A stretch of DNA of 40,489 nucleotides, taken from positions 22,911 through 63,399 of the forward strand of contig NZ_ANAD01000059.1 in assembly GCF_000341245.1 (NCBI RefSeq), in the 5' to 3' direction. Made by a program: the position numbers and the translations under genes. Of this stretch, positions 15,518 to 35,144 are shown in pieces. The notes under the pieces were generated by a model. That model did not search any database. It was not told the DNA's origin and saw nothing but the letters and a program-made list of their open reading frames with translations. Source of the DNA: Nocardiopsis halophila DSM 44494. GTDB lineage: Bacteria > Actinomycetota > Actinomycetes > Streptosporangiales > Streptosporangiaceae. The number at the start of each line of letters is the position of its first letter. Within the stretch, counting starts at the first letter, position 1.

Positions 15518-16591
15518 TCAGAGCCGCACGCCCACCATGACGGGCTCGTTGACCAGCGTGACGCCGAAGCGGTCGGCCACGCCCGCGCGCACCTCGCGCG
15601 CCAGGGCGAGCAGGTCGCCGGTGGTGGCGCCGCCGGGGTTGGTCAGGGCCAGGGTGTGCTTGGTGGAGATCCGCGCCGGCCCCGAGCCGTGGCCCTTCGA
15701 GAAGCCGGCCTTGTCGATCAGCCAGGCGGCGGAGGTCTTGACGCGGCCGCCGGCCTCGGGGAAGGCGGGCGGCTCGGCGCCGGGGCCGAGGAGGTCGGCG
15801 GCGCGCTTGCGCAGGTCCTCGAACTCGGCCTCGGTGAGGATCGGGTTGGTGAAGAACGAGCCGGCGCTGCGGGTGTCCGGGTCGTCGGGGTCCAGGACCA
15901 TGCCCTTGCCGCGGCGGAGCTCCAGCACGGCGGCGCGGGCGTCGGCGGCGGGGACCCGCTCGCCCTGCCCGACGCCCAGGCGCCGGGCGAGCTCGGCGTA
16001 GGCCACGGGGGCGCTGAGCGCGGAGGACTCCAGCTCGAAGACGACCTCGCAGACCACGTAGCGGTCGGAGCCCTTGAAGACGCTGTCGCGGTAGGCGAAG
16101 CCGCACTCGGCGGGGGCCATGGCGCGCCGCTCGCCGCGCTCGCGGTCGTACACGACGACCTCGGCGACGGTCTCGGAGACGGACTGCCCGTAGGCGCCGA
16201 CGTTCTGGATGGGGGTGGCGCCCACCCGCCCGGGGATGCCGGAGAGGCATTCGACGCCGCTGAGGCCGTCGGCGACGCACCGCTCGACGAGCCCGTCCCA
16301 CTCCACGCCGGCCTCGGCGCGCACCCGGACGGTGCCCGCGGCGCTCCCGGCCTCGGTCCGCACCCCGCCGGTGCCGACCAGGACCACCGTGCCCGCGAAG
16401 CCCTCGTCGGCGACGACGAGGTTGCTGCCGCCGCCGAGCACCAGCAGGGGGCCGCCGGCGGCGTCGGCCTCGGCGACGGCGGTGGTGAGCTCACCGGTGG
16501 TGGCGGCGGAGACGAACCGGGCGGCCGGGCCGCCCAGGCGCAGGGTGGTGTGGTCGGCCAGCCGGACACCGGCGGCGGGTGCAGCGGACAC
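15518..16591 (-). CDS. murB: UDP-N-acetylmuramate dehydrogenase
   Basis: This 357-residue FAD enzyme reduces UDP-N-acetylenolpyruvoylglucosamine in peptidoglycan precursor synthesis. FAD-domain motifs include HTTLRLGGPA near residue 14, VLGGGSNLVV near residue 51 and GIPGRVGATPIQNVGAYGQ near residue 118. The catalytic serine is in SAGSFFTNP, and YRDSVFKG precedes it. It looks like the type I MurB. It lies downstream of the MaoC pair on the same strand but is separated from it by a palindromic repeat element that probably ends that transcript. Confidence 0.96.
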   Translation of the reverse strand: MSAAPAAGVRLADHTTLRLGGPAARFVSAATTGELTTAVAEADAAGGPLLVLGGGSNLVVADEGFAGTVVLVGTGGVRTEAGSAAGTVRVRAEAGVEWDGLVERCVADGLSGVECLSGIPGRVGATPIQNVGAYGQSVSETVAEVVVYDRERGERRAMAPAECGFAYRDSVFKGSDRYVVCEVVFELESSALSAPVAYAELARRLGVGQGERVPAADARAAVLELRRGKGMVLDPDDPDTRSAGSFFTNPILTEAEFEDLRKRAADLLGPGAEPPAFPEAGGRVKTSAAWLIDKAGFSKGHGSGPARISTKHTLALTNPGGATTGDLLALAREVRAGVADRFGVTLVNEPVMVGVRL

Positions 16592-16646
16592 GGGGATCCC
16601 TCTCAGAGGCTGTCGGACGACCGGACATCACCGGCCGGCCCTTTCG

Positions 16647-16710
16647 CGTTGATCTCGGGGAAGTCGGCCTTATCAGGACCCTCTCAAGGCCGACTTCCCC
16701 GAGTTCAACG
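16647..16710. repeat. long palindromic intergenic element, copy 1
   Basis: Two 25-base arms (16647-16671 and 16686-16710) match in 24 of 25 positions around a 14-base loop. The core GTTGATCTCGGGGAAGTCGG (16648-16667) recurs exactly in a second palindrome at 32888-32907. It lies between the MaoC pair and murB and could act as a terminator, but its repetition marks it as a dispersed element. Confidence 0.85.
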
Positions 16711-16719
16711 CGGGGTCGA

Positions 16720-17148
16720 TCAGGCGAGGCGGACGACGACGGTGGGGCGGGCCAGCACCCGTGTGCCGCCCGAGCGCACGGTCAGGGCGACGAGGACCTG
16801 GTTGTCCCCGCGCTTCTCCTTGATGACCCCGGAGACGGTGATCTCGGCCCCCTCGTCGTCGTCGGGCACCACCACGGGGGCCGAGAAGCGGGTGCCGTAC
16901 TCCACGACCGCGCCGGGGTCGCCGACCCAGTCGGTGACCAGGCGCACGGCCTCGGCCATGGTGAACATGCCGTGGGCGATGACGCCGGGCAGGCCGACCG
17001 CCTTGGCGGTGCGGTCGTTCCAGTGGATGGGGTTGAAGTCGCCGGAGGCCCCGGCATAGCGGACCAGGTCGACGCGGCGCACGGGGAAGGTGCGCTCGCC
17101 GAGCTCGGTCCCGGCCTCGACCTCGTCGTAGCGGACGGCGGCGGTCAC
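16720..17148 (-). CDS. MaoC-type dehydratase, HadB-like
   Basis: This 142-residue hot-dog-fold protein is of the (3R)-hydroxyacyl-ACP/CoA dehydratase type. The catalytic signature is clear near residues 32-60: ASGDFNPIHWND, with the Asp, and then GVIAHGMFTM. It is the active partner of a HadA/HadB-like pair; in mycobacteria the equivalent complex serves the FAS-II system. Start is GTG at 17148, overlapping the stop of the upstream partner by four bases (GTGA), so the two are translationally coupled. What substrate it serves here is unknown. Confidence 0.9.
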   Translation of the reverse strand: MTAAVRYDEVEAGTELGERTFPVRRVDLVRYAGASGDFNPIHWNDRTAKAVGLPGVIAHGMFTMAEAVRLVTDWVGDPGAVVEYGTRFSAPVVVPDDDEGAEITVSGVIKEKRGDNQVLVALTVRSGGTRVLARPTVVVRLA

Positions 17149-30648: not shown

Positions 30649-30900
30649 TCAGTGGCGGTAGCCGTCACCCTCGTCGACGACGGTCTGGACCGGCCCGTTG
30701 GTGCAGTCCTCGGTGGTCTGCGGCGACAGGACCGGCACCGCGGCGCCGAGCACGCCGACGTTGGCGTTGCAGACCTGCACGGGCAGAACCTGCAGGTTCT
30801 GGTTGAACGTCTGGTCGGTCGCCTGAGCCGGGGCCGCCATGAGGACGGCGCCGGCCGCGGCGCCGACGAGCATGCCGGCGACGGTGGCCTTACGCAGCAT
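30649..30900 (-). CDS. small secreted two-Cys protein, array member 5 (type A)
   Basis: This 83-residue protein has a signal peptide (MLRKATVAGMLVGAAAGAVL, cut after APAQA). The mature part is about 57 residues, with QVCNANVGVLGAAVPVLSPQ and then DCTNGP; the two Cys are 21 residues apart. It is the last of five tandem paralogs and has a distinctive tail ending in DEGDGYRH. It groups with members 1 and 3 by the GVLGAAVP segment. A ribosome site (GGGAG) precedes the ATG at 30900. Function unknown; see the findings for the array as a whole. Confidence 0.85.
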   Translation of the reverse strand: MLRKATVAGMLVGAAAGAVLMAAPAQATDQTFNQNLQVLPVQVCNANVGVLGAAVPVLSPQTTEDCTNGPVQTVVDEGDGYRH

Positions 30901-30910
30901 CTGCGTCTCC

Positions 30911-31144
30911 CTACTTGACGAGCGTGGAGATCGCGCCGTTGGTGCAGGCGCCCGTGGACTGGGGCGACAGCACCGGGACGGCGAAGCCGATCGCGGCACC
31001 GACGTTGGCGTTGCAGACCTGCGCGGGCACGCCCTGCAGGTTGGAGTTGAAGTCCTGGTCGGTGGCCTGGGCCGGGGCGGCCATCAGGACGGCGCCGGCC
31101 GCGGCGCCGACGAGCGCGCCGGCGACGGTGAACTTGCGGATCAT
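30911..31144 (-). CDS. small secreted two-Cys protein, array member 4 (type B)
   Basis: This 77-residue secreted protein has a cleavable signal peptide ending in APAQA. The mature region of about 50 residues is TDQDFNSNLQGVPAQVCNAN, then GAAIGFAVPVLSPQSTG and CTNGAISTLV. It is of type B, marked by AQVCNAN, GAAIG and the GACTNGAIS end, and is nearly identical to member 2. It lies 10 bases upstream of member 5 and 15 bases downstream of member 3. Both Cys are kept and a disulfide is likely. Role not known. Confidence 0.87.
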   Translation of the reverse strand: MIRKFTVAGALVGAAAGAVLMAAPAQATDQDFNSNLQGVPAQVCNANVGAAIGFAVPVLSPQSTGACTNGAISTLVK

Positions 31145-31159
31145 GGGTGATTCCTCTCG

Positions 31160-31390
31160 CTACTCGACGATCGTCGAGATGGGGCCGTTGGTGCAGTCGC
31201 CGGTGGTCTGCGGGGACAGGATCGGCACCGCGGCGCCGAGCACGCCGATGTTGGCGTTGCAGACCTGGACCGGGACGACCTGCAGGTTCTGGTTGAACGT
31301 CTGGTCGGTCGCCTGGGCGGGAGCGGCCATCATGAGCGCGCCCATGGCGGCGCCGGCGACCAGGCCGGCGGCGGAGATCTTGCGGATCAT
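31160..31390 (-). CDS. small secreted two-Cys protein, array member 3 (type A)
   Basis: This 76-residue protein has the MIRKISAAGLVAGAAMGALM signal peptide and a mature part of about 50 residues. Its type A features are TFNQNLQVVPVQVCNANIG, GVLGAAVP and GDCTNGPIST. The signal peptide is almost the same as in member 2, which suggests recent duplication or gene conversion, while the mature part follows type A. It lies between two type B genes with spacers of 14-15 bases, so the genes are surely co-transcribed. Confidence 0.87.
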   Translation of the reverse strand: MIRKISAAGLVAGAAMGALMMAAPAQATDQTFNQNLQVVPVQVCNANIGVLGAAVPILSPQTTGDCTNGPISTIVE

Positions 31391-31404
31391 CAGGTCGTTC
31401 CTTC

Positions 31405-31635
31405 CTAGACGAGCGAGGAGATGGCGCCGTTGGTGCAGGCACCGGTGGTCTGCGGCGAGACGACCGGCACGGCCGCGCCGATGGCGGCACCCACGTTGGC
31501 GTTGCAGACCTGCGCGGGGATGCCCTGCAGGTTGGAGTTGAACTCCTGGTCGGTCGCCTGGGCCGGAGCGGCCATCAGGAAAGCGCCCATCGCGGCACCC
31601 GCCACCAGGCCGGCGGCGGAGATCTTGCGGATCAT
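31405..31635 (-). CDS. small secreted two-Cys protein, array member 2 (type B)
   Basis: This 76-residue protein starts at ATG 31635 (MIRKISAAGLVAGAAMGAFL); the frame extends upstream but only this start gives the shared signal peptide. The mature part is of type B: EFNSNLQGIPAQVCNAN, GAAIGAAVPVVSPQTTG, then ACTNGAISSLV. It is separated from member 1 by 60 bases, the largest spacer in the array, which could hold a processing or internal start site. Otherwise it mirrors member 4. Confidence 0.87.
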   Translation of the reverse strand: MIRKISAAGLVAGAAMGAFLMAAPAQATDQEFNSNLQGIPAQVCNANVGAAIGAAVPVVSPQTTGACTNGAISSLV

Positions 31636-31695
31636 CGGATTTCCCCTCTGGAAAAGTATGTCTGGAATCGTCACCCGTTATCGGGTGCTGCCGCT

Positions 31696-31923
31696 CTAGC
31701 CGACCTTCGTCAGGATCGGGCCGTTGGTGCAGTCACCGGTGGTCTGCGGGGACAGGACCGGGACGGCCGCGCCGAGCACACCGACGTTGGCGTTGCAGAC
31801 CTGGATCGGCACGCCCTGCAGGTTGGAGTTGTACTCCTGGTCGGTGGCCTGGGCCGGGGCGGCCATCAGAACGGCACCCATGGCGGCGCCGGCGAGCAGG
31901 CCGGCGGCGGTCAGCTTCTTCAT
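31696..31923 (-). CDS. small secreted two-Cys protein, array member 1
   Basis: This 75-residue protein is the first of the array, behind a consensus promoter and a GGGGGAA ribosome site. It has a Lys-Lys signal peptide (MKKLTAAGLLAGAAMGAVLM) cut after APAQA. The mature part mixes the two types: the NSNLQGVPIQ start of type B, and the GVLGAAVPVLSPQTTGDCTNGP of type A. Two Cys are 21 residues apart. The hydrophobic middle and paired Cys recall chaplins of Streptomyces but the sequence is not a chaplin. Its family is not known to me. Confidence 0.87.
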   Translation of the reverse strand: MKKLTAAGLLAGAAMGAVLMAAPAQATDQEYNSNLQGVPIQVCNANVGVLGAAVPVLSPQTTGDCTNGPILTKVG

Positions 31924-32629: not shown

Positions 32630-32839
32630 TCAGCCGCGCCGGCGCTCGTCCCGCCGCGCGCTCAGCTCCTCGACCGGGGTGGGAAGCGTCGTCTCGGAGC
32701 CGAGCAGCTCGGCCCAGGTCGGGGCCACGAGGATCCGGACCATGCCGTCGTAGAGTGAGCGGACCTCGGCCTCCCGGTCGTGTCCGCTGGAGCGGTGGAA
32801 CTGTCGGCCGCGTCCTTCTGAGCGGCGCGGCCGCTGCAC
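32630..32839 (-). CDS. doubtful 69-residue hypothetical protein or gene remnant
   Basis: A GTG-started frame contains VRSLYDGMVRILVAPTW and LLGSETTLPTPVEEL, which look protein-like, followed by a basic tail (ARRDERRRG). There is no family match I recognise. It may be the end of a decayed gene, since a similar open frame continues upstream without a clear start. Confidence 0.25.
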   Translation of the reverse strand: MQRPRRSEGRGRQFHRSSGHDREAEVRSLYDGMVRILVAPTWAELLGSETTLPTPVEELSARRDERRRG

Positions 32840-32880
32840 CTCGATCAGCGACCCCGCCCCGGGCGCGCGCCCCCTTCTCT

Positions 32881-32954
32881 CCTTGCCGTTGATCTCGGGG
32901 AAGTCGGGGTAATACCGGCGAGTATTCCCCCGACTTCCCCGAGATCAACAAGGG
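32881..32954. repeat. long palindromic intergenic element, copy 2
   Basis: Arms of 27 bases (32889-32915 and 32922-32948) match in 26 of 27 positions around a 6-base loop, and a CCTTG/CAAGG extension continues past a 2-base bulge. It shares the exact 20-base core of copy 1 (16648-16667) and the same palindromic plan but a different loop. Here it is not next to the end of a recognised gene. The rest of 32840-33188 shows nothing else. Confidence 0.85.
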
Positions 32955-33188
32955 TGCCGATGCGGGCGGCAGGCAGCGCCCCCGGGAGCGGCCGGGGCCA
33001 GCAGAGTCCAACCACGCCAGCGGACACGACCGGCCTCCCGCTCGACCCGTTCGACCCGTTGTTCGGCCGTCCTCGTGGAGGAGCCGTTCATGTGGAGGAA
33101 CCCCCTCGGGGATGCCCTCGACGTGGTCCGACTCGGCACGTCCGCGGATCAGCAGGACCGGGGGCACGTCGCGATTCCGCGCTTTGCA

Positions 33189-33246: not shown

Positions 33247-34245
33247 ATGAGACGCGAGGATGCGGCGAAGGTTCTCGCCGAGTACGCCACCGACCAGTGG
33301 GGTCTCGTGACCGCCGCGCAGGCCAAGCAGGCCGGTGTGAGTGGGGTTACGCTGCTGCGCCTGGTCGAGGCGGAGGTGGTGGAGAGGGTCGGCCGGGGCG
33401 TGTACCTGGTTCTGGGGGCCGCGCCCCCGCAGCACCTGGACGTCAAGGTGGCATGGCTGCGGCTGGACCCGGCACGCCCGGCTTGGGAGCGCACTTCCCC
33501 CGGGGACTATGGCGGAATCGTCTCGCATGCCTCGGCCTGCCTGGTTCACGACCTGGGCGATATCCCGACAGGGGAGGTCGAACTCAGCGTGGAACGGCGC
33601 CGCTCGACCAGGGAGAGCGGAGTTCGGCTCCGGGTCCGTCCGGTGGCTGCCGAGGATGTGACCGTCATCGACGGCCTTCCCGTGACCCGGGCCGAGCGCA
33701 CGATCGCCGACCTGCTGGAGGCCCGCACCGACGGCGGACACGTGGGCGGTGTGATCGCCGACGCCGAGCAGCGCGGGCTGGTGGACCCGGAGGCCCTGGC
33801 CGAGCGGGTCCGGCATTTCGCCACGACCTACGGCCTCTCGCGGCACACCAGGGGGCAGGCCTTCATCGAGCACCTGGTGGAACAGGCGGGGCGGACCCTG
33901 CACGCCGAGGAGGTCGCACGGGCTGCAGGGGCCGGGTATGCCCTGGCCCTGGCGGAAGCGCTGTCCACGATGCCCCTGCCCCCGGCCGAACTGCGCTCGA
34001 TGAGCAAGGTCGCCGAACAGATGGGCAGCCTGCGCAGGAGCCTCTCTCCGCCCGCGACCGCTGCGGGGATGCCGTCCCTCCCCCAGATCGGCCGACTCGC
34101 CCTTCCGAATCCGGCGCCCTCGATGCGCGAAACGCAGGCCGCGCTCGCACGTGCTGCGCTCAGAGCCCACCTACCCGACTCCTTCGGGGCATACCGATCC
34201 GGAGGAGGGCCCTCGGACGAGGACGACTCAGAGGAAGAATCGTGA
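33247..34245 (+). CDS. abiEi: type IV toxin-antitoxin antitoxin, AbiEi family
   Basis: This 332-residue protein has the AbiEi plan. An N-terminal winged-helix domain (GLVTAAQAKQAGVSGVTLLR, RVGRGVYLV at about residues 18-60) binds the operator. The antitoxin domain follows, with IVSHASACLVHDLGD and GLPVTRAERTIADLLEAR, both typical of this family. The tail of about 60 residues is Pro/Ser-rich and ends acidic (DEDDSEEES). Start is ATG 33247 (MRREDAAKV). It overlaps the toxin gene by four bases (GTGA). Confidence 0.9.
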   Translation: MRREDAAKVLAEYATDQWGLVTAAQAKQAGVSGVTLLRLVEAEVVERVGRGVYLVLGAAPPQHLDVKVAWLRLDPARPAWERTSPGDYGGIVSHASACLVHDLGDIPTGEVELSVERRRSTRESGVRLRVRPVAAEDVTVIDGLPVTRAERTIADLLEARTDGGHVGGVIADAEQRGLVDPEALAERVRHFATTYGLSRHTRGQAFIEHLVEQAGRTLHAEEVARAAGAGYALALAEALSTMPLPPAELRSMSKVAEQMGSLRRSLSPPATAAGMPSLPQIGRLALPNPAPSMRETQAALARAALRAHLPDSFGAYRSGGGPSDEDDSEEES

Positions 34246-35144
34246 GCTACAAGACACCGCGGGCCTTCGAGCAGGCGATCAATACACACGCCCGGCGCGC
34301 GGCCAGCCAGAACGGCCTGAAGACCGGCGACCTGGTCACCGGCTACTACTTCCACCGCCTGGTCGCCCGAGTGTTCCATGCCGACCCCCATGGGTGGCTG
34401 CTCAAGGGCGGGCAGGCGCTCCTGGTCCGCTACGCGGCCCAGGCGCGGCTGAGCCGTGATATCGACCTGCAGCGCCTCGGGGCCGAAGACCCCGAGGCGG
34501 CGCTGGAGACGCTGTGCGCGGCCGCGGCGACCGACCTGGGCGACTACCTCTGCTACGAACCGACCAAGCGCCAGATGCTCGCCGAGCTGACCGGCGGGGC
34601 CAAGCAGACCTTCGATGTGCTGATCGGCGTCCGCAGGGTCGCCTCGGTGAGCATCGATATCGTTACTGGACAGACCCCCACCCAGAACCCGGTCGAAACC
34701 GCTCTGGAGCCGCTCATGGAGCTGGAGTGGCCCCAGGACTGGCCGACGGTGCGGCTCTACCCGCTCGCCGACCACATCGCGGACAAGGTCTGCGCGATGT
34801 ACACCCGGTTCCAAGGCCGGGCCTCCAGCCGAATCCGCGACCTGCCCGACCTGCTGCTCATCTGCCAGAAGGACGAGGTAGAAGGCCCGGCGGCCCGGGC
34901 GGCGCTGGACAGCGAGCGCGAGCGGCGCCGCTCACTCGGCCACGACCTCGATCTCCCCGACCGCTTCGTGCTCCCCGATTCCAGCTGGGAGAAGCTCTTT
35001 CCCAAAGCCGCAGCGAACATCAGCGGGCTGAAGGGGTGCGCGACCCTGGACGAGGCCCGGCCCCTGGCCGACGCCTTCCTCACCCCGCTGCTGGCCGGAC
35101 CGCTGGAGGCGGTGTGGATGCCTTCGGATCGGGCCTGGCGTTAG
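34242..35144 (+). CDS. abiEii: nucleotidyltransferase toxin, AbiEii/AbiGii family
   Basis: This 300-residue toxin of the AbiE phage-abortive system starts at GTG 34242. The nucleotidyltransferase motif is GGQALLVRYAAQARLSRDIDL near residues 46-66, with the Gly-Gly and the Asp-x-Asp metal site. The second family motif is LADHIADKVCAMYTRF (about residues 183-198), followed by SRIRDLPDLLLI. All catalytic residues visible are kept, so it should be active. Family members add nucleotides to RNA targets such as tRNA. It is translationally coupled to the antitoxin. Confidence 0.9.
   Translation: MSYKTPRAFEQAINTHARRAASQNGLKTGDLVTGYYFHRLVARVFHADPHGWLLKGGQALLVRYAAQARLSRDIDLQRLGAEDPEAALETLCAAAATDLGDYLCYEPTKRQMLAELTGGAKQTFDVLIGVRRVASVSIDIVTGQTPTQNPVETALEPLMELEWPQDWPTVRLYPLADHIADKVCAMYTRFQGRASSRIRDLPDLLLICQKDEVEGPAARAALDSERERRRSLGHDLDLPDRFVLPDSSWEKLFPKAAANISGLKGCATLDEARPLADAFLTPLLAGPLEAVWMPSDRAWR

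Follow-up and report, generated by a model that had tools for sequence, protein, structure and literature searches.

A REPIN-like family of dispersed 62-bp palindromes, with free copies close to gene ends, in Nocardiopsis halophila and related actinomycetes

A 62-bp palindrome (copy 1) lying between a maoC-like and a murB-like gene of Nocardiopsis halophila DSM 44494 is one member of a real, abundant, and clade-specific repeat family. The members are multicopy, intergenic, and of fixed length, with conserved tips and covarying arms; they are gained or lost between species, some have been inverted in place (as seen in draft assemblies), and some are carried by a MITE. Taken together, the evidence makes it probable that copy 1 belongs to a REPIN-like family whose free copies are terminator-like and which has spread as non-autonomous elements. 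As a dispersed palindrome the family is ordinary in kind; what is unusual is its fixed length, the lack of a matching RAYT, its placement at gene ends, and its inversion and replacement in place. A fixed-length family of this sort in high-G+C actinomycetes opens three matters to testing: the means by which short palindromes are moved, the way in which the arms of a hairpin change yet keep their complementarity (by selection or by template switching), and the possible use of mobile hairpins as terminators where those with a U-tract are rare.

Two copies in the window

The window is the whole stretch of 40,489 nucleotides that was analysed; its features are collected in Table 1. Positions 16647-16710, to which an earlier note drew attention, comprise copy 1 and one flanking C-G pair. 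That note described a palindrome sharing an exact 20-base core with a second element, and the description stands: GTTGATCTCGGGGAAGTCGG matches exactly at 16648-16667(+) and at 32888-32907(+), and matches inverted at 16690-16709 (1 mismatch) and 32930-32949 (0 mismatches), with 0 matches in 100 dinucleotide shuffles of the window. Both arms of copy 1 and of copy 2 begin with this core (with one mismatch in copy 1). The inner arms differ between the copies and do so through compensating changes, as the note had also said. RNA folding of the two palindromes yields -51.6 to -55 kcal/mol, with z about -10, on both strands. A search of the window against Rfam found tRNAs only, and nothing in plasmid records matched copy 1 at E 1e-5.

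Table 1. Positions of the two palindromes and associated features in the window
Feature	Position	Strand	Remarks
Free copy (copy 1) of the dispersed 62-bp palindrome	16648..16709	no strand	tips GTTGATCTCG / CGAGTTCAAC
maoC-like dehydratase gene	16720..17148	(-)	Pfam PF01575; stop codon 10 bp from copy 1
murB-like gene, downstream of maoC on the same strand	15518..16591	(-)	Pfam PF02873, PF01565; start 56 bp from copy 1
Copy 2 of the palindrome (62 bp), within a MITE	32888..32949	no strand
MITE carrying copy 2, 256 bp	32776..33031	no strand	terminal inverted repeats GGTCGTGTCCGCTGGAGCGGTGG ... CCACGCCAGCGGACACGACC, ~23 bp
Left 8-bp target duplication of copy 2's MITE	32768..32775		GGCCTCCC
Right 8-bp target duplication of copy 2's MITE	33032..33039		GGCCTCCC

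Copy number and distribution among genomes

The earlier note made its reading depend on there being more than these two copies in the genome, and there are many more. At up to 2 mismatches, the genome of origin (G000; 6.3 Mb in 299 contigs) contains 78 forward and 67 reverse matches to the 18-base arm, against 0 for a reversed control. Searching it with the family pattern GTTGATCTCG-N42-CGAGATCAAC, and allowing up to 3 mismatches, retrieves 75 complete elements in addition to copies cut at contig ends. The same pattern finds 152 elements in G002, 46 in G005, 35 in G004, and 157 in the single contig of G025, as well as 148 in G102, which belongs to another genus. Three further genomes (G014, G069, and G083) have 8-14 each and all remaining ones 0 to 3; 21/120 genomes of the taxonomic family have any match, several of the single matches not being hairpins. 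The reversed pattern gave 0, and the pattern survey shows the subfamilies to be species-specific. A literature search, with subscription literature mostly outside it, yielded no match to the motif GTTGATCTCGGG and no such repeat described for Nocardiopsis.

Several contigs terminate inside an element, which helps explain why Nocardiopsis assemblies are fragmented. An assembly or sequence artefact, or chance, might be suspected from this, given that hairpins sequence poorly; however, the 157 copies in a single-contig genome and the empty reversed-pattern control settle the existence of the family, and the probability left to such an origin is negligible. Half-sites were considered as the ends of a longer transposon, an idea that was dropped: seven half-site stretches were fetched, of which five proved to be contig ends and another (L246) contains a full element. 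For the half-site at C202 (L242:3053), a partner was not found.

Anatomy of the element

In a survey that allowed 56-66 bp, 186/188 distinct elements from four Nocardiopsis species measure exactly 62 bp; a search with exact inner tips and free spacing found several shorter elements in G005. An alignment of 28 hand-picked sequences from the genome of origin and its relatives has 12 invariant columns, all within the outer ten positions of either side. Across genera, then, hardly any change is seen in the outer ~10 bp, whereas the inner arms vary freely yet stay complementary. In these 28 hand-picked sequences, 27 pairs are formed in 91.8% of cells versus 69.3% after shuffling, and 173 pair cells, compared across genera, are changed on both sides versus 53 in shuffles. 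The tips, which start with GTTG, GATG, GCTG, or GGTG, are paired from base 1 to base 62.

Immediately outside the element, the left base is C or T in 46/46 and 109/109 elements and the right base is G or A in 45/46 and 108/109, a bias that, for free elements, possibly reflects an insertion-site preference. The flanks of free elements also have graded base preferences further out (for example, at 16643-16647 and 16710-16714 of the window). Left and right flanks of free copies covary at chance level (z -0.4, with a loose split of free from MITE-borne copies that filed L173:5847 and L193:3022 as MITE), and the covarying unit therefore ends sharply at 62 bp. Insertion into the tips of older hairpins was rejected on this same chance-level complementarity.

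Nearly invariant tips across genera, a free interior, and a fixed 62-bp spacing are what one would expect of the binding site of a DNA-binding protein (for the nucleoid, supercoiling, or chromosome organisation) that recognises the tips and needs the interior only as a spacer. The interior, however, is also self-complementary, which a two-site protein would not need, and there is no candidate for the protein; this explanation is decidedly improbable.

Placement at gene ends and probable termination of transcription

Free copies sit between genes and mostly close to gene 3' ends, an arrangement that the earlier note had proposed to look for. With gene calls from a home-made codon-bias caller, 30/44 free copies in the genome of origin have a gene 3' end no more than 100 bp away (null 0.23, p 1.6e-10), as do 38/77 at loci of N. 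endophytica, N. suaedae, and N. chromatogenes (null 0.25, p 4e-6) and 10/12 in G025 (null 0.29, p 2e-4). In the same three sets, 22/44, 32/77, and 9/12 are found between convergent genes (null 0.18-0.20) and 3/44, 6/77, and 0/12 in divergent regions. These statistics use a stricter split of free from MITE-borne copies; they leave out duplicates, elements less than 300 bp from the end of a locus, those for which a called gene was lacking on either side, and a single element inside a called frame.

Such a distribution would also arise if the elements were purely selfish and REPIN-like, with no host function, and were seen after stop codons only because insertions in genes, operons, and promoters had been purged. 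The few copies in divergent regions agree with this, as do rapid gain or loss between species and species-specific subfamilies. However, MITE-borne copies in the genome of origin, which would have undergone the same purging, are not 3'-end-proximal: just 2/22 are near a gene 3' end, and the median distance is 223.5 bp versus 39 bp for free copies, a difference that the length of the MITE explains in part. A purely selfish origin is doubtful, although it retains an appreciable chance of being correct.

In the preferred account, the free copies would also act on transcripts. As in an intrinsic terminator, a stable hairpin stands shortly after the stop codon. There is no U-tract 3' of it; the flank is G/A-rich, and none of the positions +1 to +5 has T in more than 3/46. 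The location after stop codons, together with the symmetry and stability of the hairpin, agrees with a bidirectional terminator or a 3'-end protector that does without a U-tract. Judging from these features of the sequence, the hairpin probably ends transcription from either side. Free copies would then be kept mainly just 3' of stop codons because so stable a hairpin ends transcription, and between convergent genes the same hairpin would serve both transcripts; alternatively, it may protect mRNA 3' ends. According to the accessible part of PMC8269248, U-lacking transcript ends are found in Streptomyces, and bidirectional ends are reported for the U-lacking ('I-shaped') terminators of high-G+C bacteria, which the present hairpin resembles in being stable, G+C-rich, located after a stop codon, and free of a U-tract. 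The 62-bp elements differ from ordinary terminators in forming one repeated sequence family of fixed length.

At empty orthologous sites, a hairpin fold with z below -2 is present in 7/20 cases, versus 11/40 random positions. Substitute hairpins are therefore not clearly present there, and the comparison gives no support for a terminator being required at these sites. The earlier note had also offered a conserved terminator as a possibility. Its placement after stops and between convergent genes speaks for a terminator; conservation does not hold, since copy 1 is missing from its site in all five congeners compared, and the absence of a U-tract also counts against it.

Turnover between species

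The site of copy 1 lacks a family hairpin in G001, G002, and G003, whose flanks are about 89-92% identical, and is likewise empty in the more distant G004 and G005. For 12 sites of the genome of origin with aligned sister flanks, a comparison that can miss degenerate copies (two scored absent were found present) recognised no hairpin in any sister examined at 9, a different subfamily in one or more sisters at 3 (C18:7738 and two L208 sites with one weak flank), and the same subfamily at 0. Together with the 75 intergenic copies and with the target duplication around the MITE of copy 2, these empty sites bear out the earlier idea of a repeated extragenic or mobilised miniature element.

Comparison of N. 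endophytica with N. suaedae, both draft assemblies, reveals five shared sites of the same subfamily, two of them inverted. At L036/L042 of these drafts, the entire 62 bp is the exact reverse complement, with ~120 bp on each side nearly identical. At one further site (L061 against C3:25181), where the flanks are 93 and 96% identical, the subfamilies differ. Comparisons with a flank identity of 69-76% (L076, L048, L106, L056, L094, and others) involve repeats, not orthologues, and were excluded from the statements on these two species; the L208 and C88:14543/14831 sites were retained and flagged as weak. Thus, at shared sites of these draft assemblies, the hairpin can be inverted in place or swapped for another subfamily.

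These events bear on how the arms stay complementary. Template switching during replication can make arms change together (PMC8794818, from the part of that source available) and could also flip the hairpin centre. Covarying arms can be explained in this way, and compensation alone is therefore no proof of selection. The earlier argument from compensation to selection or mobility is accordingly weaker than it was claimed to be, since inversions and whole-arm swaps let recombination or template switching preserve complementarity with no selection at all. Complementarity may be maintained by replication template switching or arm-to-arm recombination, with selection against broken hairpins perhaps helping.

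A more elaborate idea is that the hairpins are live cassettes: an enzyme not of the Y1 type would recognise the invariant ~10-bp tips at their 62-bp spacing, invert the unit in place, and exchange one subfamily for another without a change of intergenic position, each species thereby keeping its transcription-ending sites while hairpin sequences were swapped genome-wide. We consider this unlikely.

Known systems and the search for a mobilising enzyme

Dispersed palindromes have been described mainly in Proteobacteria, where they are tied to RAYT transposases. As presented in the part of PMC3116915 used here, REPINs are REP doublets that form hairpins, and the 62-bp family is like them in having two conserved inverted ends around a constant-length spacer with compensated changes, in being extragenic at about 100 copies per genome, and in its lineage-specific types. 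It differs from REPINs in that no RAYT tracks it, its tips are paired to the last base and have no GTAG/CGTC tag, its unit is a single near-perfect palindrome of 62 bp where a REPIN has two small palindromic REPs, and it is biased to gene 3' ends. The GTAG- and CGTC-tagged REPs described in the available part of PMC3733652 are likewise short palindromic repeats, and the CGTC group also has no dedicated transposase; unlike the 62-bp elements, they are 20-40 bp long and end in an unpaired tetranucleotide tag. A word search of the main text of that paper, as available, found neither Nocardiopsis nor Actinobacteria. In sum, the elements are multicopy and extragenic, with inverted conserved ends and a fixed-length hairpin spacer; their ends are not small palindromic REPs with an unpaired GTAG/CGTC-type tag, and no RAYT flanked by the repeat was seen at the 10 Y1 loci scanned of 30 fetched. 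The layout is that of a REPIN but the RAYT test fails, and tagged REPs are shorter, with unpaired tags; therefore, "REPIN-like" is used here rather than REPIN.

Pfam PF01797 (Y1) has no match in the element-bearing genomes G004, G005, G014, G069, and G083, and only a marginal 30-residue match, within a 1137-aa frame, in G002 with its 152 copies. Overall, 18/34 genomes have Y1 matches; some element-rich genomes have none, and several element-free genomes have clear ones. RAYT/IS200 mobilisation was rejected, as Y1 matches do not correlate with element presence and the 10 scanned loci have no hairpin. An integron attC site was rejected as well, because the tip GTTGATC does not match the attC consensus GTTRRRY. 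No consistent target duplication flanks free 62-bp copies (best z ~3 in two sets, each with 42 offset/length combinations). The copies would have spread as non-autonomous elements, in part as MITE cargo, moved by an enzyme; the PF01797 search brought up no mobilising gene.

Larger repeats that carry the hairpin

The carrier of copy 2 resembles bacterial MITEs in its inverted ends, its perfect 8-bp target duplication, and its non-coding sequence, and terminal inverted repeats with a target duplication place it in that class; the 62-bp unit alone, having no target duplication, falls outside it. Hairpin-bearing MITEs of 225-256 bp with ~23-bp inverted ends have related copies in the genome of origin. 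For the 20 TIR pairs listed, which include two alternative right ends for L199, the target duplications agree in 8/8 bases in 9 and 7/8 in 3, and the mean match is 6.35 versus 2.78 for shuffled pairs. A parent insertion sequence or transposase of copy 2's MITE was not found in the genome of origin, and the ORFs shown for one TIR pair 2.7 kb apart (C93:21663-24392), judged by eye rather than by family search, include no recognisable transposase. The idea that MITE copies lacking the hairpin are clean empty sites was rejected, as L256 is a deletion derivative that retains part of the right arm.

Copy 2 and 22/67 copies counted in the genome of origin sit inside this MITE, and deletion derivatives exist, so that every free copy might be the remnant of a MITE, the sole real mobile unit. 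Yet the flanks of free copies are unrelated and their inner arms differ, with no MITE scar seen in the flanks listed, and the same 62-bp unit recurs in genera where the inner sequence is another; such a derivation is very improbable.

Directly after copy 2's MITE, window 33247-35144 (+) encodes an AbiEi/AbiEii-type toxin-antitoxin pair (Pfam AbiEi_4, AbiEii). Five frames of 75-83 aa follow one another at 30649-31923 (-); any resemblance to glycine-zipper or MotA_N domains is weak and below cut-offs.

Larger repeats other than the MITE also carry the hairpin, namely 224-bp palindromes and doublets in N. endophytica. The former, at L202 and L205, are near-perfect and have the 62-bp hairpin in their middle, reaching ~112 bp from its centre in each direction. 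The doublets, with 29-31 bp between two hairpins, number 9 among 91 elements, and a looser listing gives more. At L041, L048, L074, and L084 of N. endophytica there are composite repeats of up to ~1 kb with two or three hairpins, which contain a further hairpin-like block around GTCGTG.AATCGACGC...GTCGATTTCAC.
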